From NCBI GenBank assembly GCA_958296025.1, contig OY282430.1, positions 372,001-436,000 of the forward strand: a stretch of 64,000 nt of DNA, in the 5' to 3' direction. Below are positions 35,806 through 60,960 of the stretch, piece after piece. Made by a program: the position numbers and the translations under genes. The notes beneath the pieces are model-generated. The model had not been told where the DNA came from and did no database searches. It saw only the letters and a list, made by a program, of their open reading frames with translations. Position 1 is the stretch's first letter, and every line of letters begins with the position of its first letter. The DNA is from an uncultured Pseudomonadales bacterium. GTDB taxonomy: Bacteria; Pseudomonadota; Gammaproteobacteria; Pseudomonadales; Azotimanducaceae.

Positions 35806-38154
35806 CTAGGTCGTCCTTCCGCCCACGCCGTGAAAGCCCGGTTTGGCCTTGACTTGCAGGTCCCGGAGTTTCTCCCTCTCCTTTTTCGCCTCCCGGTATA
35901 GTTGATCGCGGCCCGGCAGGTATTGCTTTTGCCAATCCGTAACTTGGGTGCCGTACCAGGCGGCGGCTTGGTGCGTGAAGTAGGGGTTGGTTAGGTGAGG
36001 GCGGGCTAGGGCCACTAGGTCCGCTCGGCGGCAGGCGATGAGGGTGTTGACTTGCTCGGCACTGGTAATGTTGCCGACCGCCATGGTCTTGATGTTGGTC
36101 AGGTTGCGGATGGCCTCGGCGAAGGGGGTTTGGAACATGCGGCCATAGATCGGGGCTTGGTCCGGCACCGTCTGCCCGGCGGAGACGTCGATGAGGTCGC
36201 AGCTGATCTCGGCGAAGGCCTTGGCGATGGCCACCGTGTCCGCCTCGCTGATGCCGCCCTCCTTCCAGTCGCAGGCGGAGATGCGCACGGACATGGGTTT
36301 GTCGTCGGGCCAGACCTCGCGCATGGCGGCGAACACAGCCAGCGGATAGCGCACTCGGTTGTCGATGCAGCCGCCGTATTCGTCGTCGCGCAAGTTGGTC
36401 AAGGGCGACAGGAAGGAGGCCAGCAGGTAGCCGTGGGCGCAATGCAGCTCCAGCATGTCGAAGCCGGCCCGAGCGGCCCTTTCGGTGGAGGCAACGAACT
36501 GATCGCGGATGATGTCCATCTGTGCGCGGGTTAGGGCTTCGGGGCGTTGCGAAATGCCCTCAAAATAAGGGTGGTCGGAGGCGGAGACCAAGGGCCAATT
36601 GCCGGCCTGCATGGGCTTGTCCATCTCCTGCCAGCCAAGTTGAGTGGAGCCCTTGCGCCCGGCGTGACCTAGCTGCAGGCAGATGCGGGTGGTGCTGTTG
36701 CCGTGGACGAAATCGACGATGCGGCGCAAGGCCCTCTCCTGCTCGTCGTTCCACAAGCCGGTGCAGCCGGTGGTGATGCGCGCCTGCGGGGAGGGGCAGG
36801 TCATTTCCACGAACATTAGGGCGGCGCCGCCTAGGGCGCGGCTGCCGTAATGGACGAAGTGCCAATCCGTCGGCACCCCATCCACCGCCGAATACTGTGC
36901 CATGGGCGAGACCACAATCCGGTTGTCCAGCACCATCCCGCGCAGCCGGATGGGCGTGAACATCGGGGTGGGTTTGAGCTTGCGGCAGTCGAAGCCAGTC
37001 TCCTCAAAATGGGTTTGGTAGAACTCCGCATCCACCCGCTCAATGAAGGAAGGGTCGCGCAGCGCCAAGTTGTCATAGGTGATGCTCTTGGCCCGCGCCA
37101 GGACGGTGGCAGCGAACTGCATGGGCTGCATGTCCCAGGAGCGCTCCACATGCTCGAACCAGCGAAAGGAGACATCGGCATTGTGTTGCGTGATCTCCAC
37201 CTGCGTGCGACGGGCCTTGTCGTAGGCGTTGAAGGCGTCATCAAGGCTGGATTCGCCATGCGCAACGACAGCTTCGGAAAGGGCGATGGCGCACTCCATC
37301 GCCAGCTTGGTGCCGGAGCCCACCGAGTAGTGGGCGGACGCCTTGGCGTCGCCGAGCAGGACTAGGTTGCCGAAATGCCAGTTTTCACAGGAAATCCGCG
37401 GAAAGTTGCGCCACAGGGAGCGATTGATGAGCAGGGGATGGCCTTCAAGCTCATCCCGAAACACCTCCTCCATGCGCTTGGCGCTCTCCGCCTCGGAGCA
37501 GGCGTCCAAGCCCAAGCCCCGCCAGCAGACCTCCCCCATTTCAAGCACCCAGGTGCTGCGGCCAGGTTCATACTGATAGGTGTGGGCGGTGATGATGCCC
37601 TGTTCGGTTTCCCGGAAAAAGTAGTGGAAGGCGTCCAATGGCCGGGTTGAACCCATCCAGGAGAACTTGTTGCGGCAATGTGCAATTTGCGGGCGAAACC
37701 GGTCTTTGCAGCGCTCCCGAATGGCGCTGTTTATGCCATCGGCGGCGACGATCAGATCGGCATCACCGAACTCCGTCGCCAAGGCTTTGGGTTCAATGCG
37801 GGCGTTGAAACGCATCTGCACGCCCAAGGCCATGCAGCGCTCCTGCAGCAGGTTCAGCAGGGCGGCCCGGGAGCAGCCGGCGAAGCCGTGGCCGGCGCAA
37901 CGAATTTCCGCTTCCTTGAAGCGGACGACGATGTCATCCCAATAGGCCATGCGATTGCGGATGTTGCGGTAGGAAGGGGGGTCGTGGCTTAGGAATTCGT
38001 CGAGGGTTTCATCGGAGAACACTACGCCGAAGCCGAAGGTGTCCCCGGCGCCGTTTTGTTCAAAGACCTCAATGCGCCAGTCCGGACGGGCCTTTTTCGT
38101 CAGCAGGCTGAAGTACAGGCCGCCGGGGCCGCCACCAATGACCACGATGTGCAT
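35806..38154 (-). CDS. Anthraniloyl-CoA (or salicylyl-CoA) monooxygenase/reductase
   Basis: 782-residue two-domain enzyme. Residues about 1-365 are a flavoprotein monooxygenase (GGGPGGLYFSLLTKK, VAADGINSAIRE, LLGDAKASAHYSVGSGTKLA). Residues about 375-765 are an Old-Yellow-Enzyme-like reductase (MVLDNRIVVSPMAQYSAVDG, LQLGHAGRKGS, LHCAHGYLLASFLSPLTN). This fusion is characteristic of 2-aminobenzoyl-CoA monooxygenase/reductase and the related salicylyl-CoA 5-hydroxylase, which hydroxylate and dearomatise the CoA-bound ring. The start is set at MHIVVIGGGPGG; the longer frame lacks homology. It is divergent from an SDR/MarR pair across a repeat-rich region. Confidence 0.92.
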   Translation of the reverse strand: MHIVVIGGGPGGLYFSLLTKKARPDWRIEVFEQNGAGDTFGFGVVFSDETLDEFLSHDPPSYRNIRNRMAYWDDIVVRFKEAEIRCAGHGFAGCSRAALLNLLQERCMALGVQMRFNARIEPKALATEFGDADLIVAADGINSAIRERCKDRFRPQIAHCRNKFSWMGSTRPLDAFHYFFRETEQGIITAHTYQYEPGRSTWVLEMGEVCWRGLGLDACSEAESAKRMEEVFRDELEGHPLLINRSLWRNFPRISCENWHFGNLVLLGDAKASAHYSVGSGTKLAMECAIALSEAVVAHGESSLDDAFNAYDKARRTQVEITQHNADVSFRWFEHVERSWDMQPMQFAATVLARAKSITYDNLALRDPSFIERVDAEFYQTHFEETGFDCRKLKPTPMFTPIRLRGMVLDNRIVVSPMAQYSAVDGVPTDWHFVHYGSRALGGAALMFVEMTCPSPQARITTGCTGLWNDEQERALRRIVDFVHGNSTTRICLQLGHAGRKGSTQLGWQEMDKPMQAGNWPLVSASDHPYFEGISQRPEALTRAQMDIIRDQFVASTERAARAGFDMLELHCAHGYLLASFLSPLTNLRDDEYGGCIDNRVRYPLAVFAAMREVWPDDKPMSVRISACDWKEGGISEADTVAIAKAFAEISCDLIDVSAGQTVPDQAPIYGRMFQTPFAEAIRNLTNIKTMAVGNITSAEQVNTLIACRRADLVALARPHLTNPYFTHQAAAWYGTQVTDWQKQYLPGRDQLYREAKKEREKLRDLQVKAKPGFHGVGGRTT

Positions 38155-38343
38155 GGGCAATTCCGATTGAAGCCCGCTTGCAATCCAAGCATTATATTTT
38201 AATCTTAAAGTAGTTTTTCGCCGCCAATCCCGATTGATGCCGCGTTTTATTTCCGCAATTTGCTTAGCGAAGCGCACCCCTTCCTTTTTGCGCGCGCCTG
38301 CACCGCGCTCCGGGATTGGGATATCTTCCTCCCGGCTCCCGTC

Positions 38344-38585: not shown

Positions 38586-38598
38586 AAGGAGCGGTGGC

Positions 38599-39381
38599 AT
38601 GACCGAATTGAGGGGCAGGCATGCGGTGGTTACGGGTGCGGGGGGCGGCATTGGCGCTGCCATTGTTGCGGAGCTTGCCGGGTTGGGTGCCAACTTGACC
38701 TTAATGGGGCGCAACGTCGCGCCGCTGGAAGGGGTCGCGGGTGATCTCATCCGGCGGAATCCAGACGCCGATGTCGGTTGGGCGACGGTGGACGTAGGGG
38801 ACAGGGCTGCGGTCCAAGCCGCCTTTGACCGAGCCCGTAGCCGTTTCGGCGGCATCGACATCTTGGTCTGCTGCGCCGGGCAGGCGGTGAGTGAGGCCTT
38901 TCGCCGCACCACGGCGGAGCTTTGGGGCGACACGCTGCGCGTCAACTTGGATGGTGCCTTTCATTGCATTCAGGTGGCTCTGCCGGACATGTTGGACCGA
39001 GGCTGGGGACGTGTTGTCAACATTGCCAGCACCGCTGGGTTGAAGGGCTACGCCTATGTAGCCGCCTACTGCGCCTCCAAGCACGGCCTGATTGGGCTGA
39101 CACGGGCCTTGGCCTTGGAGTTGGCGGCCAAGGGCGTTACCGTCAACGCGGTTTGCCCTGGCTACACGGACACCGCGGTCGTGCAGGAGGCGTTGGTCAA
39201 CATCTGCGCCAAGACCGGGCGCAGCGAACGCGAGGCCTTGGCCGAGTTGGTTTCCGTCAATCCCCAAGGCCGCTTGGTGGCGCCGGAGGAGGTAGCCCAA
39301 GCGGTGGCTTGGCTATGCGGCCCGAACAGCGCCAGCGTCAACGGGCAGAGCATCGTCGTCGCCGGCGGGGAGCTGATGTGA
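38599..39381 (+). CDS. Short-chain dehydrogenase/reductase
   Basis: 260-residue classical SDR: TGAGGGIGAA nucleotide motif (about 12-21), NIAS catalytic Ser region, YCASK with Tyr157 and Lys161, and PGYTDT after beta-6. In anthraniloyl-CoA-type clusters an SDR acts as a 3-hydroxyacyl-CoA dehydrogenase after ring dearomatisation; this role is inferred from context. AAGGAG ribosome site 7 nt before the ATG. It overlaps the MarR gene by 4 nt. Confidence 0.9.
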   Translation: MTELRGRHAVVTGAGGGIGAAIVAELAGLGANLTLMGRNVAPLEGVAGDLIRRNPDADVGWATVDVGDRAAVQAAFDRARSRFGGIDILVCCAGQAVSEAFRRTTAELWGDTLRVNLDGAFHCIQVALPDMLDRGWGRVVNIASTAGLKGYAYVAAYCASKHGLIGLTRALALELAAKGVTVNAVCPGYTDTAVVQEALVNICAKTGRSEREALAELVSVNPQGRLVAPEEVAQAVAWLCGPNSASVNGQSIVVAGGELM

Positions 39382-39893
39382 GCCAAGACCGGGCCAAATG
39401 GGTGGTCGCCAGGAAAGCCGATCAGGCGGACATGGAGACCCGCCTGACTGACGGGGATCATCAGGCCCTGCGGCTGTGGCTGCGGATGCTGGCCTGCACC
39501 AACCTGATTGAAGGGGTCGTTCGGGAGCGCCTCAAGGGCGAGTTCGCCATCACCCTGCCGCGCTTCGACCTCATGGCTCAGTTGCAACGCTCATCCGCCG
39601 GACTGTCGATGGGCGAACTCTCACAGCGTTTGATGGTGACCGGCGGCAACATCACCGGCATCGTCGCCGCCTTGGAGTCCGAAGGCTTGATCGACCGGGC
39701 GCCGGACCCCGCCGACCGCCGTATTAACCGGGTGCGCTTGACGGCGGCCGGCGAGGCCAGTTTCGAGCATATGGCCAAGGCCCATGAAAAGTGGATCATC
39801 AACCTATACGCCGGGCTTTCAGCCCAGGAGCAAGCTGACTTAAGCGAACTGCTGGGCCGGCTGAAGGGCCGTGCAGCAAACGCACACGGCTAG
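39378..39893 (+). CDS. MarR-family transcriptional regulator
   Basis: 171 residues with GTG start overlapping the SDR stop (GTGA). MarR winged helix: LPRFDLMAQLQRSSAGLSMG, LSQRLMVTGGNITGIVAALE (recognition helix) and DPADRRINRVRLTAAGE (wing). Such MarR proteins in aryl-CoA clusters are typically ligand-released repressors responding to an aromatic CoA ester. The likely target is the divergent intergenic region with the 45-bp repeats, or the enoyl-CoA hydratase promoter. Confidence 0.9.
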   Translation: MSQDRAKWVVARKADQADMETRLTDGDHQALRLWLRMLACTNLIEGVVRERLKGEFAITLPRFDLMAQLQRSSAGLSMGELSQRLMVTGGNITGIVAALESEGLIDRAPDPADRRINRVRLTAAGEASFEHMAKAHEKWIINLYAGLSAQEQADLSELLGRLKGRAANAHG

Positions 39894-40159: not shown

Positions 40160-40978
40160 ATGCAAGCTAAGAACTTTGCGGATTACAAAGCCGAACACTT
40201 CGAATGGAGCGTCGCCGACCGGATTGGGCGCATCACCCTGAACCGTCCACAACGCAAGAACCCTCTCACCTTTGACTCCTACGCCGAGTTGCGCGACCTA
40301 TTCCAGGGCTTGCGCCATGCCCAAGACGTTCGCGCCATCGTCATCACTGGTGCTGGCGGCAACTTCTGCTCCGGCGGCGACGTGCATGCAATCATCGGTC
40401 CCTTGGTGAAGATGCCGATGCCGCAATTGCTGGCCTTCACGCACATGACCGGAAGCTTGGTGAAAGCCATGCGCAACTGCCCCCAACCCATCATCGCCGC
40501 CGTCGATGGCGTCTGCGCCGGGGCCGGCGCCATCCTGGCGTTGGTTGCGGATTTCCGCTACGCCACGCCAGAGGCGAAGACCGCCTTTCTGTTCTGTCGG
40601 GTGGGATTGGCGGGTTGCGACATGGGTGCCTGCTGCTTGCTGCCGCGCCTGATCGGCGAGGGTAGGGCGGCGGAACTGCTGTACACTGGGCGCAGCTTCT
40701 CCGCCGCCGAAGGGGAACGTTGGGGCTTCTTCAATGAGGTCCTCCCGCAGAAAGAACTCTTGCGGCATGTGCTTGAATTGGCCCGTCGAATCGCCACTGG
40801 CCCAACCTTTGCTCACGCCATGACCAAGACCATGCTGAACCAAGAGCGGAGCATGACCTTGGAGCAGGCGGTGGAGGCGGAGGCCCAAGCCCAAGCTATC
40901 TGCATGGCCTCCGAGGACTTCAAGCGGGCCTATCAAGCCTTCGTCAACCGTGAAAAGCCGCAGTTCATTGGCGGCTGA
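40160..40978 (+). CDS. Enoyl-CoA hydratase/isomerase family protein
   Basis: 272-residue crotonase fold. Oxyanion-hole segments [17 protein letters not shown] and [20 protein letters not shown], then [20 protein letters not shown] in the active-site region; the usual catalytic Glu positions appear altered (GLAGCDMG), so it may be a specialised hydratase or ring-opening hydrolase. In anthraniloyl-CoA clusters an enoyl-CoA hydratase homologue follows the MarR gene, as here. Confidence 0.9.
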
Positions 40979-41039
40979 ACCGAGGATTTCACCAAGGACG
41001 GCCATGATCGTGCCGGATGTTCGCCCCTAAGGAGTGCAA

Positions 41040-41438
41040 ATGACTATTGAAGTGCTGGCGCCGCCGCAATTTCCCCGTCCCCAAGGATACGCCGATGGCG
41101 TGGCCGCCACCGGTCGCTTGGTGATGACCGCCGGCCACGTCGGTTGGGACGAACAGGGCCAGTTCGCACAGGGCCTAGTCGCCCAAGTGGAGCAAGCCCT
41201 GCGCAACATCACAGCGGTTCTCCAGGAGGCCAACGCCCTCCCGCAGCACTTGGTGCGGCTAACTTGGTACATAACCAGCCGCGACGCCTATCTGGCCGAA
41301 CGCAAGGCCATCGGTGTCGCCTACCGTCGCGTCATCGGCCGCCATTATCCGGCCATGGCCGTAGTCGAGGTGTCCGCCCTGATTGAATCCGAAGCGTTGG
41401 TGGAGATTGAGGCAACGGCGGTGATTCCTGAAGGCTAA
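41040..41438 (+). CDS. RidA-family (YjgF) imine/enamine deaminase
   Basis: 132 residues of the RidA trimer fold, with GRLVMTAGHVGWDEQGQF, LRNITAVLQEANALPQHLVR and YPAMAVVEVSALIESEALVE (the conserved Arg/Glu ligand region is only partly standard). RidA proteins hydrolyse reactive imines. In anthraniloyl-CoA degradation such an enzyme could remove the amino group from a dearomatised enamine/imine intermediate (inference). ATG at 41040 has AAGGAG 6 nt upstream. Confidence 0.88.
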   Translation: MTIEVLAPPQFPRPQGYADGVAATGRLVMTAGHVGWDEQGQFAQGLVAQVEQALRNITAVLQEANALPQHLVRLTWYITSRDAYLAERKAIGVAYRRVIGRHYPAMAVVEVSALIESEALVEIEATAVIPEG

Positions 41439-41495: not shown

Positions 41496-41939
41496 TCATG
41501 GAGCCTGATTGCCCTTGGCCGATAGCCTGCGCTTCAGCGCCAGCCGGATGTCTTCCGGGATGGGCAGGGACTTGAGGTTGCCGTCTTGTTGGATTTGCGC
41601 GTGGATGCGCACGGCACGGCCTTCGGCGACCTGGGCGCCGGTGGTTAGGTTCAGGGCGGTGCAGTGCCAGTGCAGGGTGCGTTCGCGTATTTCCTCCAAG
41701 ACCAAGGAGCAGCGCACCTTGTCGCCGTAGGCGGCGGGGCCGACGAAGCGAAAATGCACGTCGCCCATCACGAAGGAGCGGCGCTCCTCTTGGATCATGC
41801 GGTCGATGGGGTAGCCGATTTCACGGAACAGGTCGTGCTCCACATCGTTGAACCAAGCAAGTTCGCGGGGGTAATAGACCAAGCCAAAGGGGTCGGATTC
41901 GCCCCAGTTGACATGAATTTCCTTGGAGTAGTCGGCCAT
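41496..41939 (-). CDS. Acyl-CoA thioesterase of the 4-hydroxybenzoyl-CoA type
   Basis: 147-residue hot-dog fold protein. The N-terminal motif WGESDPFGLVYYPRELAWFN contains the 4HBT-type catalytic Asp followed by the helix Tyr, and FRFVGPAAYGDKVRCSLVLE the conserved strand pair. It would hydrolyse an aromatic or short acyl-CoA, recycling CoA. It is convergent with the RidA gene but belongs functionally to the same cluster; thioesterases are standard members of anthraniloyl-CoA loci. Confidence 0.88.
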   Translation of the reverse strand: MADYSKEIHVNWGESDPFGLVYYPRELAWFNDVEHDLFREIGYPIDRMIQEERRSFVMGDVHFRFVGPAAYGDKVRCSLVLEEIRERTLHWHCTALNLTTGAQVAEGRAVRIHAQIQQDGNLKSLPIPEDIRLALKRRLSAKGNQAP

Positions 41940-41970
41940 AGCTTCGATTCTTACATCAGGATGTTCGTTG

Positions 41971-42255: not shown

Positions 42256-44427
42256 ATGCTTCTTAGAGACAGCGGCTGTCGGCGGCCGGTGCAGCTGGGC
42301 CCCTATCCCTTGGAGGCCCTGAAGAGGGACTCGAGCCTCATAGAGTTGGAGCGGGCGCGGCCGGCGCCGACGGAGGCCGAAGCGCCGGTAGCGACGCCCT
42401 TGACTGGCGCAGCGCGTCACTATGCAAAACTCTTCTCCGCTTTCGCGGAAGGAGAATGCGCATCCCAAGAGGCGCAGGGCAGCGAAGACTTAGAGCTTCG
42501 GGCCGGGGAGGCCAAGGGTGCCGCCTACTACTTGGATGCCAGCCACGCGGGCATCTGCAAAATCCCGCACTGGGCTTGGCGGAAGGACGGGGTGAACCCC
42601 ACAGGCCACAGCCATGCGGTGGTCATTCTGGTGGCCCATGGGCGCGAGGTGGAGCCGGACAATCCGGCGCATCAATGGCTGCGCGGCAGCGAACAGGAAA
42701 TCGCCAGGCTGCGGGCTTTGGAGATCGCCGCCTGCATCGCCGGGCACATTCGCGCCTTGGGGCATTCTGCCCAGGCCCATTGCAGCGGCCGCAGCTCGGT
42801 GGCGCTGGAGTCCTTGGCCGTCTTGGCCGGAGTGGCCCGGCGCTCGGCGGCGGGAGGGCTGGCCAGCCCCTTTGTCGGAGAGGGCTTTGCCCTGGCGACC
42901 GTCACCACCGGCTACGCCCTGGCCGTGGACTTGCCGTTGGCGGCGAACGCCAAGATCAACTCGTTGCGCTATTGGTGGGGCGCCAACGGCGCCGTCTCTG
43001 GACGGGAGCGCCGCCGTTGCGCCAAGCGCCGTTCCGATCTGAGCCGCTATCCCATGGAATGGGTGCGCCGGGTGGACCGGCCCACCACGCTGATTTTCGA
43101 GGATGAGGTTCCCAAAGTGCCGCAACGGGCCAACTTCTTCGTGCGGGCTAGGCACGGGGATTTGGGGCCGAAGGCGCAGCGGGAGGTCAAGCGCTTCGCC
43201 TACAAGCATCCTCTGACCTACGGGATGATGCCCGTGCTGCGCAGCATGATTCCTCATCAGGACGGCCCCGTGGCGCAGGCTGACAATGGTGCTTTTGCGG
43301 ACGCCGAAGCCAACACTCGCGCCCTCAAGTCCCTCTCCTACCACCTAGGGGCGGACCTGACCGGCGTGTGCGAAGTGCCCGAATATGCTTGGTACTCCCA
43401 TCGGGCCGATGGTGAACCCATCGCCAAGCGCCATCGGTACGCGGTGGTGATGCTCATCGACCAAGGCTACGACACCATGGAGGGCGCTAGTGGCGACGAC
43501 TGGATTTCCGGCTGCCAGTCCATGCGCGGCTATCTGCGCGGCGCGGAAATCGCCGGGGTGATGGCGGAGTTTTTGCGCAGCCAAGGGGTTTCGGCTCGGT
43601 CGCAAACCAATGCGGACAGCGAGGTTCTGCACATTCCCTTGATTCTGCTGGCCGGCCTCGGCGAACTCAGCCGCATCGGAGAGTTGGCCCTCAACCCCTT
43701 CGTCGGCCCCCGCTTCAAGTCCGTGGTGTTGACCACGGACCTGCCCCTTGTCCCGGACAAGCCCATTGACTTCGGCCTCCAGTATTTTTGCAGCCGTTGC
43801 CTGAAGTGCGCTCGGGAATGCCCGGTCAGCGCCATTCCCTTCGGCGGCAAGGTCGTGTTCAACGGCTATGAAATCTGGAAGCCCGACGTGGAGCGTTGCG
43901 CCCGCTACCGCATCACCAACCAAAAGGGCTCTGCCTGCGGCCGTTGCATGAAGACCTGCCCCCTAAACAAGGTGGTTTCCGCCGACGGTGCCTTGGTGCA
44001 TCGGGTCGGCACTTGGCTGGGCGTTCATGCCTTCTGGCTGAAGCCCTTGCTGGTTCCCTTGGCGGTCTATCTCGACGACCTGTTCCGCTTTGGCTGGCGC
44101 AACACGGTCAAGCGCTGGTGGCAGGACTTGGAAATGGTGGATGGCGTAGCGGTCAAGCCCCCGGCCGGCGTCAACGAGCGGGACCTGGACTTCACGGCGG
44201 ACACCACCGGCCGCAAGTCGCCGGTCGGCTACTACCACGCCGCCGACATGCCGGCGCCAAACGCCGTGCAGGCCAAGCCGGTCAACCACCGCGCCGCGGT
44301 GGAACGGGCGAAGCTGATCGAAACCGTTGACGTCGCCGTGGCCCGCCGTGCCCGAGGTGGCGAGAAGCCGGCCCACTATGTCCCGCCGGCGCATACAGCA
44401 CCACAGGAAGCCGTTGCAGCCGACTAG
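42256..44427 (+). CDS. rdhA: Cobalamin-dependent reductive dehalogenase, catabolic NpRdhA type
   Basis: 723 residues without a Tat signal, so cytoplasmic. Two tandem nitroreductase-like B12 modules: about 80-235 (vestigial copy) and 330-505 (AEIAGVMAEFLRSQG, NPFVGPRFKSVVLTTDLPL), then a two-cluster ferredoxin-like domain. [4Fe-4S] ligands are Cys512/515/518/522 (CX2CX2CX3CP) and Cys548/561/564/568 (CX12CX2CX3CP), the reductive-dehalogenase signature. Tyr426, Lys488 and Arg552 fall at the same numbers as the catalytic Tyr/Lys and substrate-binding Arg I recall for NpRdhA, which debrominates 3,5-dibromo-4-hydroxybenzoate. No fused reductase domain. AGGAGG sits 6 nt before the ATG. QueG-type epoxyqueuosine reductase is the alternative but is much shorter. 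Confidence 0.88.
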   Translation: MLLRDSGCRRPVQLGPYPLEALKRDSSLIELERARPAPTEAEAPVATPLTGAARHYAKLFSAFAEGECASQEAQGSEDLELRAGEAKGAAYYLDASHAGICKIPHWAWRKDGVNPTGHSHAVVILVAHGREVEPDNPAHQWLRGSEQEIARLRALEIAACIAGHIRALGHSAQAHCSGRSSVALESLAVLAGVARRSAAGGLASPFVGEGFALATVTTGYALAVDLPLAANAKINSLRYWWGANGAVSGRERRRCAKRRSDLSRYPMEWVRRVDRPTTLIFEDEVPKVPQRANFFVRARHGDLGPKAQREVKRFAYKHPLTYGMMPVLRSMIPHQDGPVAQADNGAFADAEANTRALKSLSYHLGADLTGVCEVPEYAWYSHRADGEPIAKRHRYAVVMLIDQGYDTMEGASGDDWISGCQSMRGYLRGAEIAGVMAEFLRSQGVSARSQTNADSEVLHIPLILLAGLGELSRIGELALNPFVGPRFKSVVLTTDLPLVPDKPIDFGLQYFCSRCLKCARECPVSAIPFGGKVVFNGYEIWKPDVERCARYRITNQKGSACGRCMKTCPLNKVVSADGALVHRVGTWLGVHAFWLKPLLVPLAVYLDDLFRFGWRNTVKRWWQDLEMVDGVAVKPPAGVNERDLDFTADTTGRKSPVGYYHAADMPAPNAVQAKPVNHRAAVERAKLIETVDVAVARRARGGEKPAHYVPPAHTAPQEAVAAD

Positions 44428-44819
44428 ACCCCGCCAATACTATTCAAGGCTGCCGAGTTTTAGCGTGAGGGGCCCCTGCGTACATTCAGGCTTGCCCGCA
44501 TTTTTTTGCGTCATCTAGCCGTCGCTTTGCCGCCGCCACAAGCTCCTCGGAAAATTCATCAGCGTGTTTGAACGCCACCAGATACTCACCGGTGAGCTCT
44601 GGTAGGCCTCAGTTCGCTACGTCCGCGCATCAACCCACACTCCGCACGCGACGGCTCTTCTCACTCGCGCCGGCCTCACGAGTTGCGACCGGGTTGAGGG
44701 CATTCTGTCCGCATTCCCTTGGTTGGGTTGCAAACATCCAGGAAGAATCCTAGGGTGATTACATGGGAATTGAAATCGACATTTGCACCGGTGACATCAC
44801 GCGAGTGCAGGAGGATCCC
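44428..44819. other. Intergenic region after the dehalogenase gene
   Basis: About 390 bp. It contains a palindrome AGGGGCCCCT around 44468-44477 and a T7 run near 44503 that might be a weak terminator. On the minus strand a start-less frame around 44520-44600 translates as PELTGEYLVAFKHADEFSEE and AAAKRRLDDAKKCGQA before a stop, possibly a fragment of a lost gene. No intact gene is recognised. Confidence 0.35.
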
Positions 44820-45632
44820 ATGCAACTCACCGACAAAGACATCCGCGCCTACCGGGAGGATGGCGCGGTGGTGGTGCGTCAGGCCGTCGCCAAGGCGGAG
44901 GTCGCCGACATGCTGGCGATGATCGACCGGCATCTTGAAGGCGGCGAGCATCAATGGCTGGTGCGGCGCCCCAACTCACTCTCCGAGCGCTATCTTTGGC
45001 CCGCCCATGAGTGGATGCGCCGATTTTGCGCCGAGACGGCGCTACCGGAGATTGCCGGGCGCTGCATGGGCAGCGCTTGGGCGCGGCTCTACTTCGACCA
45101 TCTGTTCTATCGAGAGGCAGGCGGCAGCGACGATACGCCCTGGCACCAGGACTGGCCCTATTGGCCGGTTCGAGGCCGGCACATTATCTCCGTTTGGGTG
45201 GCCCTGACCCCCTGCGGTCCCGATTCCAGCGGGCTGCAATTCGTGCGCGGTTCGCACGATTGGGGCAAGATGTACCGCCCGGTGCAGTTCAACGCGGACC
45301 GCAGCACGGACGGGTTCCTCGCCGGCAACGAGGCGGGGGAAGCCCTGCCGGACATAGACGCCGCCTCGGACGAATACGACATCCTGTCTTGGGACATGGA
45401 CGCTGGGGACGCCATCGCCTTCAGCGCCGCGGCCATCCACGGCGCCAAGGACAACGACGGCGGCGGCGGTCGGCGGGTGGCGGTTTCGGTGCGCTATTTG
45501 GGGCAAGACGCCATCTGGGACCCGCGGACTGGCACCGACCCGGCGATCAATCCCGAGGCGGCGACCTGTCGCCCCGGCAAGCCGCCAGCGGACGACAAGA
45601 CCTTTCCCCTCGTCTGGCGGCGGGCCGAGTGA
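44820..45632 (+). CDS. Phytanoyl-CoA dioxygenase (PhyH) family protein
   Basis: 270 residues. Fe(II)/2-oxoglutarate oxygenase facial triad: HxD in PWHQDWPYWP (His109, Asp111) and distal His207 in AIHGAKDN, then the 2OG-binding Arg in GRRVAVSVRY. PhyH members hydroxylate diverse small molecules, including halogenated and natural-product substrates; the substrate here is unknown. The start is the ATG with AGGAGG 6 nt upstream; an ATG 57 nt earlier has no good ribosome site. Confidence 0.88.
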   Translation: MQLTDKDIRAYREDGAVVVRQAVAKAEVADMLAMIDRHLEGGEHQWLVRRPNSLSERYLWPAHEWMRRFCAETALPEIAGRCMGSAWARLYFDHLFYREAGGSDDTPWHQDWPYWPVRGRHIISVWVALTPCGPDSSGLQFVRGSHDWGKMYRPVQFNADRSTDGFLAGNEAGEALPDIDAASDEYDILSWDMDAGDAIAFSAAAIHGAKDNDGGGGRRVAVSVRYLGQDAIWDPRTGTDPAINPEAATCRPGKPPADDKTFPLVWRRAE

Positions 45633-45667
45633 CCCATGGCCGCTGCCAGAGCGCTCCCATGCCGCCC

Positions 45668-45696
45668 TTGACATGCAGCCACCCTGCGAGCATCTT
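45668..45696 (+). promoter_or_regulatory. Candidate sigma-70 promoter for the AlbA/dual-OB/DUF488 operon
   Basis: A consensus TTGACA (45668-45673) is followed after 17 bp by CATCTT, a weak -10 match. A short inverted repeat CCGCAT/ATGCGG (45700-45705 and 45712-45717) lies just downstream and could be an operator in the leader. The position, about 100 nt before the first gene of the operon, is suitable. Confidence 0.35.
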
Positions 45697-45794
45697 GGGC
45701 CGCATGAAATAATGCGGTTGGCCACCTGAATTCCAACGCCACAACCGGCGAGGCTTTCTCCCTCCGGCTTGCGGATGTGGAGCGTTTTGAAGCG

Positions 45795-47042
45795 ATGATC
45801 GATGCAAACCTGATGCGCCGCATTCAGCTTGGCGAGGACTCCGCTTTGGAGTTGAAGAGTGTTCTTCTGTCCGGCGATTCCGTCAAAAGCCCGAAACGAG
45901 ATGATTTCGCCGACGAGCTGGCCGCGCTAGCCAACGGTCGGGGAGGAACTTTGGTCTTGGGGGTGGACGACAAGACCCGAAGGGTCGAGGGCATTCCATT
46001 GGATGGCTTGGATGCCGTTGAGAGCTGGGTCCGGGAGATCTGCAATGATTCCATCAAGCCCGCTCTAGACGCGGACATTCTTAGGGAGGAGGTCGAGCAA
46101 GAAGACGGCAATTCAGTGGCCGTTCTTCGGGTGGATGTGGGGCGCAGCCTGTTCGTACATAAGAGCCCCGGCGGCTACTTCCGCAGAATTGGCAGCTCCA
46201 AGCGCGAGATGGCGCCGGAGGCATTGGCCCGGCTGTTTCAGGAGCGCAGCCAGAGCCGCGTCATTCGTTTTGACGAGTCCATCGTGCCGCGCACCACGCC
46301 GTCTGACTTGCGATATTCACTCACTTGGCGATTTTTCCGAGACGACCCTTCGGCGCCTTCGCCCGAAAGTGCTCCAGAGGATTTCGGCGTTGCGTTGCGC
46401 AAGCTGCGCATTGTCGCCGATGAGGCCGACGGCGCACCGCGGCTGACCCTTGCCGGAGCGCTGCTTTGCACCCAAGACCCGCAAATTTGGCTGCCTCACG
46501 CCCATATCCAAGCCGTCAGCTACGCTGGCGAGCGTACCGACACGGACTACCAAACCGACGCCCGCGACATTGGCGGGCCGCTGGATCAACAGGTTGCCGA
46601 CGCACTGCACTTCGTGCGGCGCAACATGCTGGTGCGGGCGAACAAAGGAACAGCCCGGTCGGAACACCCTCAATACAGCGAACGGGCAGTGTTTGAGGCG
46701 CTTGTGAATGCGGTGGCCCATCGGGACTACTCGATGGCCGGCACCCGGGTGCGCCTCCACCTGTTCGGTGACCGCCTTGAGCTTTACGTTCCCGGCGCTC
46801 TGACGAACACGCTCACTCCGGACAGCCTGCACCTGCGGCAGTCGAACCGCAACGAACTCATTGTGTCCTTGCTGGCGCGATGCGCTGCGCCCACTGGAAT
46901 AGGTCGCACCCGGCTGATGGACCGGCGCGGCGACGGGGTGCCGATCATCCTTCGGGAATGCGCAGATCTGTCCGGCCGGCCGCCGGAGTACCGCCTGATT
47001 GACGACTCGGAATTGCGCCTGCTGATTTGGGCGGCTGCCTAG
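45795..47042 (+). CDS. AlbA-2/Schlafen-like protein with GHKL ATPase-like C-terminus
   Basis: 415 residues. The N-terminal Schlafen AlbA_2 domain (about 5-140) shows LELKSVLLSGD, ELAALANGRGGTLVLGVDD and YFRRIGSSKREM. The C-terminal part (about 285-400) resembles the RecG-like HATPase_c_4 module: FEALVNAVAHRDYSMAGTRV with the N-box-like Asn, and LYVPGALTNTLTPDSL. Such proteins are called putative DNA-binding or transcriptional regulators and recur in defence loci; RNA or nucleotide sensing has been suggested. It leads a run of four genes ending in two DUF488 proteins. ATG at 45795 chosen over an upstream GTG. Confidence 0.8.
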   Translation: MIDANLMRRIQLGEDSALELKSVLLSGDSVKSPKRDDFADELAALANGRGGTLVLGVDDKTRRVEGIPLDGLDAVESWVREICNDSIKPALDADILREEVEQEDGNSVAVLRVDVGRSLFVHKSPGGYFRRIGSSKREMAPEALARLFQERSQSRVIRFDESIVPRTTPSDLRYSLTWRFFRDDPSAPSPESAPEDFGVALRKLRIVADEADGAPRLTLAGALLCTQDPQIWLPHAHIQAVSYAGERTDTDYQTDARDIGGPLDQQVADALHFVRRNMLVRANKGTARSEHPQYSERAVFEALVNAVAHRDYSMAGTRVRLHLFGDRLELYVPGALTNTLTPDSLHLRQSNRNELIVSLLARCAAPTGIGRTRLMDRRGDGVPIILRECADLSGRPPEYRLIDDSELRLLIWAAA

Positions 47043-47051
47043 GGAGAGATC

Positions 47052-47741: not shown

Positions 47742-47757
47742 CGGCGGGGGCGCGGCT

Positions 47758-52808: not shown

Positions 52809-54140
52809 ATGGGCGAATACATCGATAACCCCGGGGCCGTGCAGTCCTTAGTGCGCCCAGACGCGGTGCATCGAGACCTGTACATCGACGACGAACTGTT
52901 CGCCTTGGAAATGCGCCATCTCTGGCGCAACACCTGGATCTATGTGGGCCACGACAGCCAAGTGCCGAAGGCGGGGGACTACTTCACCACGCAAATCGGC
53001 TTGGAGCCGGTCATCCTGGTGCGGGACCCCGATGGCGGCGTCAACGTCTTGATGAATCGCTGCGCCCACAAGGGCACCCGCCTGCTCAGCGCCCAGAGCG
53101 GCAACTGCGGTTCCGCTATTCGCTGCCCCTACCACGGCTGGACCTACCATCTGAACGGCGCCATCCGCGCCATTCCGGTGCGCCAGGGCTACGAAGGCAC
53201 GGCGGTGATGGAAAGCGATGCCGGACGCGGTGTGGTTCGGCTGCGCCATGTGGAAAATTACCGGGGCTTCGTGTTCGCCCGTCTGGCGGACGAAGGCATG
53301 GGCTTTCGGGACTACTTCGGGGATTCGCTGACCTCCATCGACAACATGGTGGACCGGGCGCCGGCGGGCCGCTTGGAGGTGGCCGGCGGCGTGTTGCGCT
53401 ACCTGCACAACTGCAACTGGAAGATGTTCGTGGAGAACCTGAACGACGCCATGCATCCCATGATCGCCCACGAATCCTCGGCCGGCACGGCCAAGGCGGT
53501 GTGGGAATCCCTGAACATGCCGGAGGATGCGCCCAAGCCCATGGTCGTGGAGCAGCTTCTGCCGTTCGTCTCCAACTACCGCTTCTTTGACAACATGGGG
53601 GTGAAGATCTACGACAACGGCCACAGCTACTCCGGCGTCAACTTCTCAATCCACTCCAAATACTCCAGCATCGGCCCCTACGAGCAGGCCATGATCGACG
53701 CCTACGGCGAGGAAAGGGCGCAGGCCATTTTGGGGGAGGTGCGCCACAACACCGTCTATTACCCCAGCCTGACCATCAAGGGCGCTATTCAGTCCATCCG
53801 CGTGGCCCGCCCCTTGGCGGCGGACAAGACGGTGCTGGAAAGCTGGACCTTCCGCCTGGTCGGGGCACCGGAGGAACTGCTGCAACGCACCCTGACTTAT
53901 TCCCGCCTGATCAACGCCCCCACCTCCATCGTCGGCCACGACGATCTGCACTGCTACCGCTCCATTCAGGAGGGCTTGGCGGCCAGCGGCAACGATTGGG
54001 TGAGCTTGCATCGGGACTATGATTCCGCCGAGGAAGGGGCCATTGCCGGGACATACAACGGCTTGAGCGAGGTCTCCATGCGCGGCCAGTTCCGTGCTTG
54101 GCGGAAGTTCATGGTGCCGGATGCAGGGGCAGGTGGGTGA
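52809..54140 (+). CDS. Rieske aromatic-ring-hydroxylating dioxygenase, large subunit
   Basis: 443 residues. Rieske [2Fe-2S] ligands Cys85, His87, Cys106 and His109 (NRCAHKG and CPYHGWTYH), and the mononuclear iron site NLNDAMHPMIAHES with Asp213, His216 and His221. Resembles benzoate/anthranilate-type alpha subunits, which add O2 to the ring of aromatic acids; the exact substrate is not decided by sequence. The small subunit follows. No ferredoxin or reductase gene is adjacent, so electrons must come from elsewhere. A 243-bp gap precedes it. Confidence 0.92.
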   Translation: MGEYIDNPGAVQSLVRPDAVHRDLYIDDELFALEMRHLWRNTWIYVGHDSQVPKAGDYFTTQIGLEPVILVRDPDGGVNVLMNRCAHKGTRLLSAQSGNCGSAIRCPYHGWTYHLNGAIRAIPVRQGYEGTAVMESDAGRGVVRLRHVENYRGFVFARLADEGMGFRDYFGDSLTSIDNMVDRAPAGRLEVAGGVLRYLHNCNWKMFVENLNDAMHPMIAHESSAGTAKAVWESLNMPEDAPKPMVVEQLLPFVSNYRFFDNMGVKIYDNGHSYSGVNFSIHSKYSSIGPYEQAMIDAYGEERAQAILGEVRHNTVYYPSLTIKGAIQSIRVARPLAADKTVLESWTFRLVGAPEELLQRTLTYSRLINAPTSIVGHDDLHCYRSIQEGLAASGNDWVSLHRDYDSAEEGAIAGTYNGLSEVSMRGQFRAWRKFMVPDAGAGG

Positions 54141-54153: not shown

Positions 54154-54297
54154 ATGAACCCGCCCAAGCCGATGAACGCACCAGAACCAATGAATTCGCC
54201 CAAGTCGATAAATGCCCCCGACCCGACAAACGCGCCTAGGCTGAGGAACCTACCCGAACCCATGAGTGCGCCCGACCTGATGAACGCTCCCACTCCC
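54154..54297 (+). repeat. 18-bp tandem repeat encoding M-N-x-P-x-P hexapeptides
   Basis: Eight diverged 18-bp units translate as MNPPKP, MNAPEP, MNSPKS, INAPDP, TNAPRL, RNLPEP, MSAPDL, MNAPTP at the very start of the small-subunit gene. The unit is a multiple of three and keeps the frame. Such Asn-Pro repeats are unusual in this enzyme family; they create several alternative in-frame ATG codons. Confidence 0.8.
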
Positions 54298-54762
54298 GAG
54301 GAACTGGTGCAATTCGTCTATAACGAAGCGCGGCTGATCGACGAAAAGCGTCTTGACGATTGGTACGAACTGTTCGCCCCAGACGCCCTCTATTGGATGC
54401 CCCTGACCCGGGGCCAGCCGGAGGGCGAGGGCCACACCTCCCTGTTCTATGAAGACAAGCTGCTGCTCAAAGTGCGCATCGAACGCCTCAAGCGCCCCCA
54501 ATCCTACTCCCAAAACCAGCCAAGCTTCTGCCAGCATGTTTTGCAGCGCCCGGAGGTGCTGTCCTTGGACATCGAGGCCAACGAGTTCATCCTACGCACC
54601 CCCTTCCTGTACGCGGAAAGCCGGCTGGACGATCAGTTGGTGCTGGCCGGCGTGGCCCGCCACCATCTAACCCGCATCGGCGAGCACTTGCGCATCAAGC
54701 TGAAGAAGATCGAACTGCTGAACTGCGACGCCGCCCTGCCTTCCATTCAGCTGTTTCCGTAG
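54154..54762 (+). CDS. Rieske dioxygenase small (beta) subunit
   Basis: The conserved part is about 160 residues: EELVQFVYNEARLIDEKRLD, YELFAPDALYWMPLTRGQ and the C-terminal HLRIKLKKIELLNCDAALPS, the cystatin-like ring-hydroxylating beta-subunit fold. It gives structural support to the alpha3beta3 oxygenase. Upstream of it an M-N-x-P repeat of 48 residues is in frame; none of the ATGs (54154, 54262, 54280) has a convincing ribosome site. If the start is 54280, the length is the family norm of about 160; 54154 gives 202. Confidence 0.85.
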   Translation: MNPPKPMNAPEPMNSPKSINAPDPTNAPRLRNLPEPMSAPDLMNAPTPEELVQFVYNEARLIDEKRLDDWYELFAPDALYWMPLTRGQPEGEGHTSLFYEDKLLLKVRIERLKRPQSYSQNQPSFCQHVLQRPEVLSLDIEANEFILRTPFLYAESRLDDQLVLAGVARHHLTRIGEHLRIKLKKIELLNCDAALPSIQLFP

Positions 54763-56532: not shown

Positions 56533-56702
56533 AACACAACCTTCTTCCGGTTGCTCAAGCCGGCACCGAGACAAGGGCTTTAGAGCTTGGCGGAAGAGCG
56601 GTTCCCCTTGATGTTCCCGTTGGTGACGGGGAAGCCGAAGATGCCATTAGAAGACTTTGCTTCATCCTCGGCGTTCGGAAGAGTTGAAAGGGAGGCTGGT
56701 CT

Positions 56703-57014: not shown

Positions 57015-57026
57015 TTGGTCGCTCGC

Positions 57027-58040: not shown

Positions 58041-58056
58041 GTCGAGAGTTGCCGAA

Positions 58057-58860
58057 CTACCCCGGCAGCAGCGCGACGATGCGCAGTGGGCCGCCGCTGC
58101 CCCCCTTGATCTTCATTGGCAAGGCGATCACGCGGGCGCCAGTGGGAGGCAGGCGCTCTAGATTCGCCAAGTTCTCGAATGCGGGAATCGCGGCCTCGAA
58201 CAGGATGCGGTGCGACTCGAAGAAACGCGATTGGCCGTAGTCGATGCTTGGGGTGTCGATGCCGATGGCGTCCACCTCGCGTTCCTCCGCGAGCATGCGC
58301 GCGGCGTCGGGATGCAAGCCCGGAAAATGCAACTCGGCGACGGCCTCCGGGCCGCTTTGGGTGGTGCCGAGGTAGTGTGCGGGGTCGGGCCAGAAGCGGC
58401 CATAGCCGGTGCGCAGGAGCACGATGGCGCTGGTCGGCAGCCGACCGTGGGTGCTCTCCCAAGCCTCGAAGTCTGCTGGCGTTGCCAGATAGTCCGGGTT
58501 GGCGAGGGCAGCTTCGGATACGTCAATGACGAACGCCGGCCCGATCAGCCGACTAAGCGGGATGGCGTCCACGCTTGGCTGGCCTTCGGCGAAATGCGAT
58601 GGCGCGTCGATGTGCGTGCCGCCGTGCTCGGCGGTGCGGAAGCTGTATGCCTCATACCAATAGCCGTCATCGGTTTTGCCGCGGCTGTCCACCGTAAGCT
58701 CAAAGGGGTCGGCTGTTGGCCAATACAGCGTGTCCGTTCCGAAATCGTGCGTTAAGTCCACCCACTCGCCGGCCCAAGGGTCCGGCTGATCGTGCGGGGC
58801 GCATGCCGTGAATGCGGCCAACAGCGCAAAGAGTGCAAGCATCCTGAACATGCGCGGCAT
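58057..58860 (-). CDS. Cyclase-family (KynB-like) lipoprotein
   Basis: 267 residues. Lipoprotein signal: MPRMFRMLALFALLAAF, then Cys20 after T-A. The mature part has the cyclase-family metal motif EHGGTHIDAPSHFAEG and the DAIGIDTPSIDYGQSRFFES segment. The family includes kynurenine formamidase (KynB), which makes kynurenine from N-formylkynurenine, and isatin hydrolase, so both tryptophan and isatin routes are possible. Location at the envelope is unusual for KynB. The start is the ATG at 58860. Confidence 0.85.
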   Translation of the reverse strand: MPRMFRMLALFALLAAFTACAPHDQPDPWAGEWVDLTHDFGTDTLYWPTADPFELTVDSRGKTDDGYWYEAYSFRTAEHGGTHIDAPSHFAEGQPSVDAIPLSRLIGPAFVIDVSEAALANPDYLATPADFEAWESTHGRLPTSAIVLLRTGYGRFWPDPAHYLGTTQSGPEAVAELHFPGLHPDAARMLAEEREVDAIGIDTPSIDYGQSRFFESHRILFEAAIPAFENLANLERLPPTGARVIALPMKIKGGSGGPLRIVALLPG

Positions 58861-59163: not shown

Positions 59164-60960
59164 GTGTCTTGGGAGAAGTTCGGCACCGTTTACGAGGCGT
59201 TTCGGGCCAGCGCCCAGGCCTCGCCGGAGGCGCCGTTTCTGCGCATTGTGGCGGATGCGGCGCGGCGCTACGGCATCGAACCGGGAACCCTGAGCTACGC
59301 TGCCGCCCTGCGGGAGGTGGGGCACTTGGCTTCCATGTATCGCTCGGCCAACCTTGGCCCGGGCTGCCGCGTTGCCCTGCTGCTGGGCAACCGCCCGGAT
59401 TTCTTCCTGCACTGGCTGGCGCTGAATGCCGTCGGCGTCTCCGTGGTGCCCTTGAACCCGGATTGGGGCGCCGCCGAGGCGCAATACGTTCTTGGGCACA
59501 GCGGTGCGCTGCTAGCGGTGGCCGAAGCCAAGCGGCGCAAGGATCTCGAGGACGCCGCCGCGCATCTGCCCCAGCCGCCGGCGGTTGTCGATTTGACGAT
59601 GGCTCGGGTTGGCGACTTTGCGAACCGCTCGGGCAGCAAGTCCTCCCGCCGAATCGACCAGCCGGCTGAGGGGCCGCTGCCCCAAACCCATGCGAAAGCA
59701 CCGCATGGCCAAGAAAAAGTCAACTTGCCCAAGGGCGGGAGCGGGCCATCCGGTGGAGGAAGGCTTGCACTCGGCGCCATCCATCCCGAAAACCCAGCTC
59801 ATCCCCCCGCTGCCGTGGAAACGGAGTGCGCCCTGCTCTACACCTCCGGCACCACCGGCAAGCCCAAGGGCTGTGTGCTGACGAACCAGTATTTTCTTTG
59901 GAGCGGGGAGTGGTATCGGCGCTTGGGTGGGCTGTGCGAACTGCATCCGGGCCGGGATTGCCTGATAACGCCCCTGCCCATGCACCACATGAACGCCATG
60001 GCCTGCTCCAGCATGGTGATGCTGATGACCGGCGGCTGCATCGCCCCCTTGGACCGTTTCCATCCCTCCACCTGGTGGGCCAGCGTGCGCGAGGCGGAGG
60101 CGACCATCATCCATTATTTGGGCGTCATGCCGGCCATGCTGCTGGAGCGGGACCCTGATCCTTTGGACGCCCGCCACAAGGTGCGCTTCGGCTTCGGTGC
60201 CGGGGTGAGCGCCGCCCACCACACCGCCTTCGAGCAGCGCTTCGGCTTCCCCTTGGTGGAGGCTTGGGCAATGACGGAGACCGGCTGCGCCGCGGCGATC
60301 ATCGCCAATGCGAAACCACGCAAGGTGGGCACGGCTTGCTTCGGTCGGCCGCCGCCGGAAGTCGATTGGCGCATCGTCAACGACGAAGGCGAGGATTGCG
60401 CCCCGGGCGCAACCGGCGAACTGTTGGTGCGCCGCACCGGGGAGCAGCCGCGCTTCGGCTTCTTCCGGGAATATCTGCACGACCCGCAGGCCACCAAGGC
60501 CGCTTGGGAGGGCGGCTATTTCCATACCGGGGACTTGGTGCGCCAAGACGAGGACGGCCTGCTGCACTTTGTCGATCGCAAGAAGAACCTCATCCGCCGC
60601 AGCGGCGAGAACATCGCCGCCGTGGAAGTGGAGGCCGTCATCGCCGAACATCCGCAAGTGACCGCCGTGGGCGTGGCGGCGGTGCCCGACGCCATCCGGG
60701 GGGACGAGGTGATGGCGTTGGTGGTGCTCAAGCCAGCGCCCAATTCGGATGCGGATGACGAAACGAATTTGGCGCGGGCCATCGTCGCCCACTGCCGTCA
60801 GCGCTTGGCCTACTACAAGGCGCCCGGCTACGTCGCCTTCTGCGCACGCCTGCCGCTGACCGCCACGGAAAAGGTGCAGCGCACCGAGCTGAAAGCCTTG
60901 GCCCAAGCCAGGCTGGCTGCCGGAACTTGCGTGGACACTCGGGATTTGAAGCGGCGGTAA
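59164..60960 (+). CDS. AMP-forming acyl-CoA synthetase/ligase
   Basis: 598 residues with GTG start. ANL family motifs: P-loop LLYTSGTTGKPKGCVLT, EAWAMTETGC (A5), GYFHTGDLVRQDEDG (A7) and the C-terminal ENIAAVEVEAVIAEHP hinge; the catalytic Lys is in TEKVQRTELK. It would activate a carboxylic acid (for example anthranilate, an aryl acid or a fatty acid) with ATP and CoA. A long low-complexity insert of about 65 residues occurs before the P-loop (around residues 148-217). It is the only CoA ligase in the window and so a candidate for starting the aryl-CoA route. Confidence 0.9.
   Translation: MSWEKFGTVYEAFRASAQASPEAPFLRIVADAARRYGIEPGTLSYAAALREVGHLASMYRSANLGPGCRVALLLGNRPDFFLHWLALNAVGVSVVPLNPDWGAAEAQYVLGHSGALLAVAEAKRRKDLEDAAAHLPQPPAVVDLTMARVGDFANRSGSKSSRRIDQPAEGPLPQTHAKAPHGQEKVNLPKGGSGPSGGGRLALGAIHPENPAHPPAAVETECALLYTSGTTGKPKGCVLTNQYFLWSGEWYRRLGGLCELHPGRDCLITPLPMHHMNAMACSSMVMLMTGGCIAPLDRFHPSTWWASVREAEATIIHYLGVMPAMLLERDPDPLDARHKVRFGFGAGVSAAHHTAFEQRFGFPLVEAWAMTETGCAAAIIANAKPRKVGTACFGRPPPEVDWRIVNDEGEDCAPGATGELLVRRTGEQPRFGFFREYLHDPQATKAAWEGGYFHTGDLVRQDEDGLLHFVDRKKNLIRRSGENIAAVEVEAVIAEHPQVTAVGVAAVPDAIRGDEVMALVVLKPAPNSDADDETNLARAIVAHCRQRLAYYKAPGYVAFCARLPLTATEKVQRTELKALAQARLAAGTCVDTRDLKRR

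Follow-up and report, generated by a model that had tools for sequence, protein, structure and literature searches.

The window analysed here, a stretch of 64,000 nucleotides belonging to the 3.9-Mb single-contig genome of an uncultured Pseudomonadales bacterium (contig OY282430.1, positions 372,001 to 436,000), carries between its positions 35806 and 60960 a catabolic island with a reductive dehalogenase gene, rdhA, in its midst. As judged by homology and layout, the island shows a putative iad-type indole-acid locus joined to a predicted anthraniloyl-CoA-type dearomatisation module. Our preferred reading, to which we give slightly less than an even chance, is that two systems are nested here and that RdhA would be an accessory enzyme debrominating ortho-bromophenolic aryl acids, widening the substrate range rather than serving as a step of the iad pathway. 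The genes named in an initial annotation of the window are all present in this interval and supported by profiles, and its central claim, a dehalogenase resembling NpRdhA (from Nitratireductor pacificus pht-3B) flanked by an anthraniloyl-CoA-type module on one side and indole-acid genes on the other, is borne out by coordinates and profiles, as is its indole theme, iad leading from indole-3-acetic acid (IAA) to anthranilate. Two of its proposals fared worse: the catabolic gene combination, presented as undescribed, is not new, because IorAB, Rieske oxygenase, cyclase and ligase together correspond to the published iad type, and a dedicated haloindole route finds no support in either gene distribution or active-site residues (see below). 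The unusual point is that rdhA lies inside the island.

The dehalogenase and its active site

RdhA is predicted to be a non-fused catabolic reductive dehalogenase with B12 and two [4Fe-4S] clusters. Its closest solved relative is NpRdhA (4ras; 620 bits, E 3.9e-185), on whose residues 8–692 its residues 9–697 align, i.e., nearly over the full length, against 85 bits for the respiratory PceA and 22 bits for QueG. The NCBIfam profile TIGR02486 recognises it above cut-off (169.8 vs. 160.35 bits); Pfam PF13486 left it unmatched and had no match in its own genome, but this profile matched no control either. All eight cysteines of the two 4Fe-4S motifs are present (the 104 aligned rows depart from them only by gaps and one tyrosine), and the gene is under purifying selection relative to its nearest relative (ratio of nonsynonymous to synonymous divergence, dN/dS, 0.21). 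The open reading frame ends at 723 residues without a fused C-terminal reductase, Pfam and NCBIfam showing no reductase domain; no twin-arginine leader is visible by eye, the sole RR (residues 9–10) lacking a leader-like hydrophobic stretch after it, and RdhB is not among the neighbours assigned by profiles around RdhA. In a plasmid collection, eight records match RdhA at 36.6–38.9% identity, and the match at 38% on a Comamonas sp. 7D-2 plasmid is presumably BhbA.

The initial annotation had reported both Fe-S motifs and Tyr426, Lys488 and Arg552 at NpRdhA positions, which the 4ras and 104-row alignments confirm, with S422 in addition. Y426 and K488 are present in every one of the 104 rows, among which is the window protein; R552 is missing from one row, L122, where the alignment has a gap, and thus occurs in 103. 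Nine of the 12 active-site residues named in the accessible text on NpRdhA (PMC7565698) are kept (F290, F291, F310, S422, M423, Y426, N452, K488 and R552), while the 4ras alignment reveals three changes in RdhA: A419 to G, P311 to A and K307 to V. According to the same text, S422, K488 and R552 of NpRdhA are close enough to the phenolic OH for hydrogen bonding, Y426 is positioned to give a proton, the second bromine sits in a pocket lined by A419, and K307 met the carboxylate at the pocket entrance (PMC7565698). With the NpRdhA group set aside, 89 of the 90 non-fused rows have glycine at position 419, where the 11 fused rows have V or C; position 307, V in our protein, is R in 68 of these 90 rows.

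The characterised relatives act on ortho-halophenols, i.e., they debrominate ortho-bromophenols; in the accessible account of the fused JtRdhA, 3-bromo-4-hydroxyphenylacetate is converted as fast as dibromo-hydroxybenzoate, both being the best in its table (PMC10463259). By analogy with NpRdhA, a halogen positioned ortho to an ionisable group on the ring would ligate cob(II)alamin, S422, K488 and R552 would contact the phenolic oxygen, Y426 would donate the proton, and electrons would reach the site via the two clusters from a separate donor; a B12 supply for RdhA is plausible. Substrates may be of the 3-bromo-4-hydroxy-benzoate or -phenylacetate type, or hydroxylated bromoindole acids, the products then entering aromatic-acid catabolism.

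Several points weigh against such an accessory role. The acid may bind differently in RdhA, because position 307 has lost the lysine of NpRdhA. A strict phenol requirement does not follow from JtRdhA, because the sole brominated non-phenol among the inactive compounds in its accessible account is 5-bromo-2-furoic acid, the rest being chlorinated or fluorinated, phenols included (PMC10463259). No reported substrate was found for the sister clade to which RdhA belongs, and no dedicated reductase was found beside it, the only NAD_binding_1 (PF00175) match of the genome at E ≤ 0.001 being a protein of 366 residues, PaaE-like by eye, 1.45 Mb from RdhA. Finally, the co-occurrence of RdhA with IorA and its partial linkages in two alphaproteobacterial loci (L104 and L108, see below) hint at a tighter tie than that of an accessory.

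In a quick maximum-likelihood tree (105 rows, midpoint root, some contigs entered twice, e.g., L027/L047), the window RdhA and its twin from the sister genome G109 are placed in a clade of 87 rows (SH-aLRT 99) distinct from, and adjacent to, the NpRdhA group, in which NpRdhA is joined by L190 (G413) and, less surely, by L116 and L121; the 11 fused dehalogenases cluster together, L044 being next to them. RdhA thus appears to be an enzyme of the NpRdhA kind that belongs to a sister clade; its initial placement stands insofar as it stays among non-fused catabolic dehalogenases, albeit beside the NpRdhA group. No characterised or assayed member was found for the 87-row clade, the marine Roseobacter debrominase (PMC13101508, accessible in part) standing outside the comparison. 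Even without any coupling to the island, intact-site non-fused catabolic dehalogenases are common in uncultured Proteobacteria (572 RdhA-related stretches found in GTDB), and this large clade shares the changed pocket residue G419.

Corrinoid-related genes were observed in both sister genomes. One cobalamin riboswitch precedes a receptor that looks BtuB-like by eye in the window's genome, where a corrinoid-activator-like protein also adjoins an MtrH-like gene (L243), and MttB-like and MtrH-like corrinoid methyltransferase genes lie near the G109 RdhA (L045:764-2317 and 4234-5133), the activator-like and methyltransferase genes likewise being recognised by eye.

The iad-type locus and the anthraniloyl-CoA-type module

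IorA/IorB, the Rieske pair, the cyclase and the CoA ligase (Table 1) appear to fit an iad-type auxin (IAA) degradation locus. The Rieske dioxygenase of the initial annotation is present as a pair and can be refined to IadD/E-like: after the two best matches of its large subunit, the next solved oxygenase family follows at E 1.8e-45. One of the two, 9O71, is IadDE of V. paradoxus (PMC12633357, accessible text), and 7yls is probably also an IadD, given its near identity to 9o71. As far as the accessible text goes, iorB/iadB and iorA/iadA are exclusive markers of iad-like operons, in which IAA is converted to isatin and anthranilic acid (PMC9613470); IorA, IorB and both Rieske genes are contiguous in the window, which thus displays these markers. 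IadF is taken for an acyl-CoA synthetase and IadI for an amidase annotated as kynurenine formamidase (PMC12633357, accessible text). The cyclase of the window, initially called KynB-like, is indeed a metal-dependent cyclase, but among named enzymes it is nearer to isatin hydrolase than to kynurenine formamidase (E 1.3e-15). Cleavage of IAA to N-formyl-aminobenzoylacetyl-CoA, with KynB as formamidase, was considered and dropped in view of the isatin/isatinic acid route of iad and of the isatin-hydrolase match.

For two iad components no counterpart could be established. A search of the genome for the reductase IadC returned the PaaE-like protein as the one PF00175 match and six PF00111 matches, the other five lying in frames of 167, 772, 195, 113 and 979 residues, of which two were looked at; none of these matches looks like IadC, although a strongly diverged reductase might have escaped the search. 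With the island thiolase of G057, a genome of the same genus, the thiolase at 30313 shares just 27% identity, which does not establish it as IadG-type.

The fused monooxygenase/reductase (ACMR) scores 1045.8 bits over 762 of the 768 positions of NCBIfam PRK08255, just under the curated cut-off of 1078, and is 92% identical to its G109 copy; its sequence does not decide between anthraniloyl- and salicylyl-CoA, and its start is more likely near 38154. Because iad yields anthranilate, the anthraniloyl-CoA-type module follows on from it and would take over at anthranilate. Briefly, IAA would pass through the Rieske oxygenase and CoA ligase, thiolase and dehydrogenase steps to isatin, which the cyclase would open to isatinate on the way to anthranilate or its CoA ester; the monooxygenase/reductase and beta-oxidation-like steps would follow, with RidA clearing enamines. 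IorAB, in our own suggestion, may take an aryl 2-oxo acid, either indolepyruvate or isatinate, as its substrate.

Table 1. Features of the island, with positions in the window.
Feature	Position	Strand	Evidence
ACMR, anthraniloyl-CoA/salicylyl-CoA-type monooxygenase fused to OYE-type reductase	35806..38277	-	PRK08255; Pfam FAD_binding_3 and Oxidored_FMN
Short-chain dehydrogenase (SDR) of ACMR module	38599..39381	+	Pfam adh_short; adjoins ACMR in relatives
MarR-family regulator	39402..39893	+	Pfam MarR; best solved match 3boq, E 7.7e-23
Enoyl-CoA hydratase	40160..40978	+	Pfam ECH_1; adjoins SDR/ACMR in relatives
RidA-family protein	41034..41438	+	Pfam Ribonuc_L-PSP; also in relatives' islands
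4HBT-type thioesterase	41496..41939	-	Pfam 4HBT_2; in islands of L166, L167, L170, L173
RdhA, predicted catabolic reductive dehalogenase, 723 aa, no fused reductase	42256..44427	+	4ras match, TIGR02486, residues, tree
PhyH-family Fe(II)/2-oxoglutarate dioxygenase, adjoins RdhA	44763..45632	+	Pfam PhyH; best solved match MysH, E 5.2e-24
AlbA/Schlafen, dual-OB and two DUF488-like genes	45777..48833	+	Pfam SLFN_AlbA_2, DuOB; DUF488 labelled by eye
IorA (iadA-type), indolepyruvate oxidoreductase alpha	48834..51026	+	IOR_alpha 277 bits, below cut-off 650.9; TPP_enzyme_C
IorB (iadB-type), 510 aa	51033..52565	+	PRK08312 537.5 bits, cut-off 348
Rieske oxygenase large subunit, IadD-like	52809..54140	+	9o71 E 8.9e-188; 7yls E 1.7e-185
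Rieske oxygenase small subunit, IadE-like by position	54241..54762	+	Pfam Ring_hydroxyl_B
Metal-dependent cyclase, isatin-hydrolase-like (IadI-type by annotation)	58057..58860	-	Isatin hydrolase A, E 2.9e-38
AMP-forming acyl-CoA ligase (IadF-type by annotation)	59164..60960	+	Pfam AMP-binding

Several of these neighbourhoods recur elsewhere. The MarR gene adjoins ACMR in L167, L168, L169 and L183, and the ligase counterpart adjoins the Rieske pair in L166 (53%) and IorB in L175 and L176. PhyH stays beside RdhA in G109, the two being paired, among the loci searched, only there and in the window. The AlbA/DuOB/DUF488 stretch is apparently an unrelated insert between RdhA-PhyH and IorA; AlbA, DuOB and the first DUF488 gene (DUF488a) are found in G109, where the second (DUF488b) has no match. 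HipA-like (by eye) and AAA-type genes precede ACMR (window 32476-35631) and, together with the AlbA/Schlafen-HATPase, dual-OB and DUF488-like genes, resemble cargo of a defence or toxin type carried by the catabolic island. A PDDEXK_9 protein (window 57027-58040) matches eight places of G109 at the DNA level, as an expanded repeat family. An Rfam scan of the window gave no match at gathering score.

Linkage of rdhA to the island in relatives

The island was examined in samples of 200 genomes of the family and 299 of the phylum, the IorA/ACMR distance counts including the window's genome. In the family sample, IorA is present in 17 genomes and ACMR in 20, with 16 shared, and seven of the 17 carry the two at a distance below 13 kb on a single contig; the phylum sample has them in 22 and 41 genomes, respectively, with 19 shared, 12 of these less than 13 kb apart. 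In G057, about 17 kb hold IorA-IorB-RieskeA-RieskeB-ligase-thiolase-SDR-cyclase-ACMR-SDR-hydratase-OYE-RidA-4HBT, without any RdhA match in the genome or any MarR matched in the island. Given G057 and these counts, the island set minus rdhA is ordinary for these bacteria. Synteny in relatives, as envisaged initially, is only partial: most of the set recurs in G057 without rdhA and RdhA-PhyH-IorA recur in G109, while rdhA is fully linked to the island only in the window, among the genomes and loci searched.

For RdhA, a match of at least 42% identity, a line set by ourselves, was taken as NpRdhA-type, which retains 23 of the 200 family genomes (35 at E 1e-3, from which 12 with short or QueG-like matches only were dropped; G152, G156, G181, G107 and G130 are fragment-based). 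The association with IorA and the monooxygenase/reductase anticipated by the initial annotation does exist at the genome level in this sample, RdhA occurring in 12 of the 17 IorA genomes (p 1e-9) and 12 of the 20 ACMR genomes (p 2e-8), vs. 3 of the 12 genomes with hmgA, used as a control (p 0.15). Because the window's genome had been chosen for having both genes, the statistics were repeated without it, giving 11/16 for IorA (p 6e-9), 11/19 for ACMR (p 9e-8) and 3/12 for hmgA (p 0.13); by genus, with the window's genus left out, they become 4/5 (p 0.005), 4/6 (p 0.014) and 3/6 (p 0.11). In the phylum sample without G000, three of the 12 RdhA genomes have IorA (p 0.04) and five ACMR (p 0.013), none having RdhA near them. 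These statistics ignore descent and habitat.

Such figures, together with the position of RdhA inside the island, could suggest that RdhA is a dedicated step dehalogenating bromoindole acids, bromo-isatinate or bromoanthranilate (or their CoA esters) for an iad/anthraniloyl-CoA route acting on brominated tryptophan or IAA. A Bradyrhizobium strain with an iad locus reportedly catabolises 4- and 5-chloro-IAA, to judge from a title, which we count on the same side, as we do the two alphaproteobacterial loci, with IorAB directly before RdhA in L104 and the ACMR module beside it in L108. We nevertheless regard such a step as unlikely. The residues conserved in RdhA are those that touch a phenolic OH in NpRdhA (PMC7565698, accessible text), and the published iad intermediates have, in our reading, no OH ortho to a ring halogen. 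Moreover, five of the 17 IorA family genomes (G024, G049, G057, G120 and G168) have no NpRdhA-type RdhA, 11 of the 23 RdhA genomes have no IorA or ACMR (many assemblies being incomplete), and 10 of the 12 genomes with both carry RdhA on a contig that holds neither IorA nor ACMR (many contigs being short). Since IorA also co-occurs with hmgA (6/17, p 1e-4), part of the RdhA–IorA signal reflects general catabolic gene content.

A more specific proposal, possible but not favoured and in our view still less probable, is an aerobic route in which brominated indole-3-acetate would be debrominated by a B12 enzyme and then taken by iad to anthraniloyl-CoA, the pocket opened by G419 and shared by the sister clade accommodating bulkier acids. 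Brominated IAA can derive from bromotryptophan or bromoindole natural products, and 5-hydroxy-6-bromo forms present an ortho-bromophenol. No description of this route via a B12 enzyme and iad, nor of RdhA with iad or bromoindole, was found in the literature searched, most subscription journals lying outside it. If the systems were coupled, catabolic reductive debromination and auxin-type indole degradation, both known and aerobic, would be joined, and the locus would offer a direct test of bacterial recycling of brominated indoles.

The loci around RdhA relatives in GTDB were examined for the best 80 of the 572, to which the counts in this paragraph refer. Besides G109, partial linkage is seen in two of 79 loci, against a rough expectation from prevalence of 0.06–0.22: the order is IorA-IorB-RdhA, without a break, in L104 and RdhA-OYE-ACMR-MarR-...-RidA in L108. 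As their RdhAs are not near that of the window in the tree, these linkages probably arose separately; since aromatic gene clusters tend to lie together, they are a hint and not a proof. The presence of IorA close to RdhA in the window and G109, and immediately ahead of it in L104, could also mean that IorAB supplies electrons, the oxidation of an aryl 2-oxo acid reducing a ferredoxin that drives RdhA, so that linkage would need no shared substrate. A non-fused RdhA does need an external donor and few candidate reductases were found; however, IorA of this type lies nearby only in L045 (G109) and L104, the form in L085, L089 and L091 is a distant long one (25–26% identity), and none matched in L108, which makes this explanation very improbable.

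The history of the insert bears on yet another explanation, namely that RdhA, PhyH and AlbA/DuOB/DUF488 are cargo in a recombination-prone spot, with RdhA debrominating unrelated natural products and having no functional tie to the island. Relative to G109, the synonymous divergence (dS) is 0.56 for RdhA codons 1–380 and 0.145 for codons 381–723, then 0.12 for PhyH, 0.10 for AlbA, 0.07 for DuOB and DUF488a, and 0.30–0.65 for IorA. The tract from about RdhA codon 381 through DUF488a has a dS of 0.07–0.19 and, because this is low compared with its flanks, the block of about 5 kb was probably exchanged recently by recombination. The low-dS tract counts in favour of cargo, as do the varied neighbourhoods of RdhA: at a clustering threshold of at least 38% identity, and with 10 of 95 loci having no RdhA assigned to a cluster, each neighbour cluster listed is found within 4 kb of RdhA in five of the 95 loci at most. 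The same holds for the scattering of the island in G109, where 4HBT-RdhA-PhyH-AlbA-DuOB-DUF488a-IorA lie together at 1.72–1.73 Mb, while ACMR-RidA are at 0.59 Mb, the ligase at 0.54 Mb and IorB-Rieske at 2.03 Mb, the cyclase having no DNA match. Yet RdhA, PhyH and IorA have remained within one stretch in G109 despite this dispersal, and the partial linkages in two alphaproteobacteria point the same way. We consider pure cargo rather unlikely and retain the accessory debrominase as our preferred reading.

Some further observations concern these loci. In 400-base steps, window 43400-48600 is a mosaic tract 94–99% identical to G109, the 5' half of RdhA and IorA being far more diverged. On the single contig of G109, IorA (C1:1721896-1723983, within L022) and IorB (2031861-2035509), subunits of one enzyme, are 0.3 Mb apart, and the island is in at least four pieces; an integrase-core transposase-like gene (L045:7937-8959, by eye) adjoins 4HBT at the island break. 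A second, short RdhA-like family (389–441 residues, 27–34% partial identity) was also noticed (L168:565-1890 and L169:1811-2980, in two genomes of one genus), beside homogentisate-type genes and several kb before ACMR. The short proteins of G135 and G152 were rejected as the island dehalogenase, as they belong to a distant family (32% and 27% partial identity) with homogentisate-type neighbours by eye.

Comparison with known systems

As far as published accounts are accessible, the nearest known enzyme is NpRdhA (4ras, 6zxu; PMC7565698), with which RdhA shares its length, a near-full alignment, both Fe-S motifs, S422/Y426/K488/R552 and the lack of a fused reductase, but from which it differs by its sister clade and by A419G, P311A and K307V. 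The JtRdhA/BhbA type (PMC10463259, accessible text) is likewise catabolic, its catalytic residues occurring also in the fused relatives aligned (JtRdhA and BhbA themselves being outside the alignment), yet both enzymes carry the C-terminal reductase that RdhA lacks. The phylum sample has 12 other genomes with a match, and in 11 of them the RdhA frames are of this fused kind (1061–1110 residues), with V or C at position 419.

With the iad locus of Variovorax and Bradyrhizobium, as described in accessible text (PMC9613470, PMC10374108 and PMC12633357), the window shares IorA/IorB, the IadD-like and small Rieske subunits, the cyclase and the acyl-CoA ligase (IadF). It differs in being joined to the ACMR module, in being broken up by RdhA, PhyH and defence-like genes, and in that no IadC-type reductase was found in the genome. 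Finally, compared by layout with the anthraniloyl-CoA monooxygenase/reductase operon of Azoarcus/Aromatoleum evansii, the window shares the monooxygenase–OYE fusion, SDR, hydratase, thioesterase and MarR, while differing in its RidA, its linkage to iad and a PRK08255 score just under cut-off.

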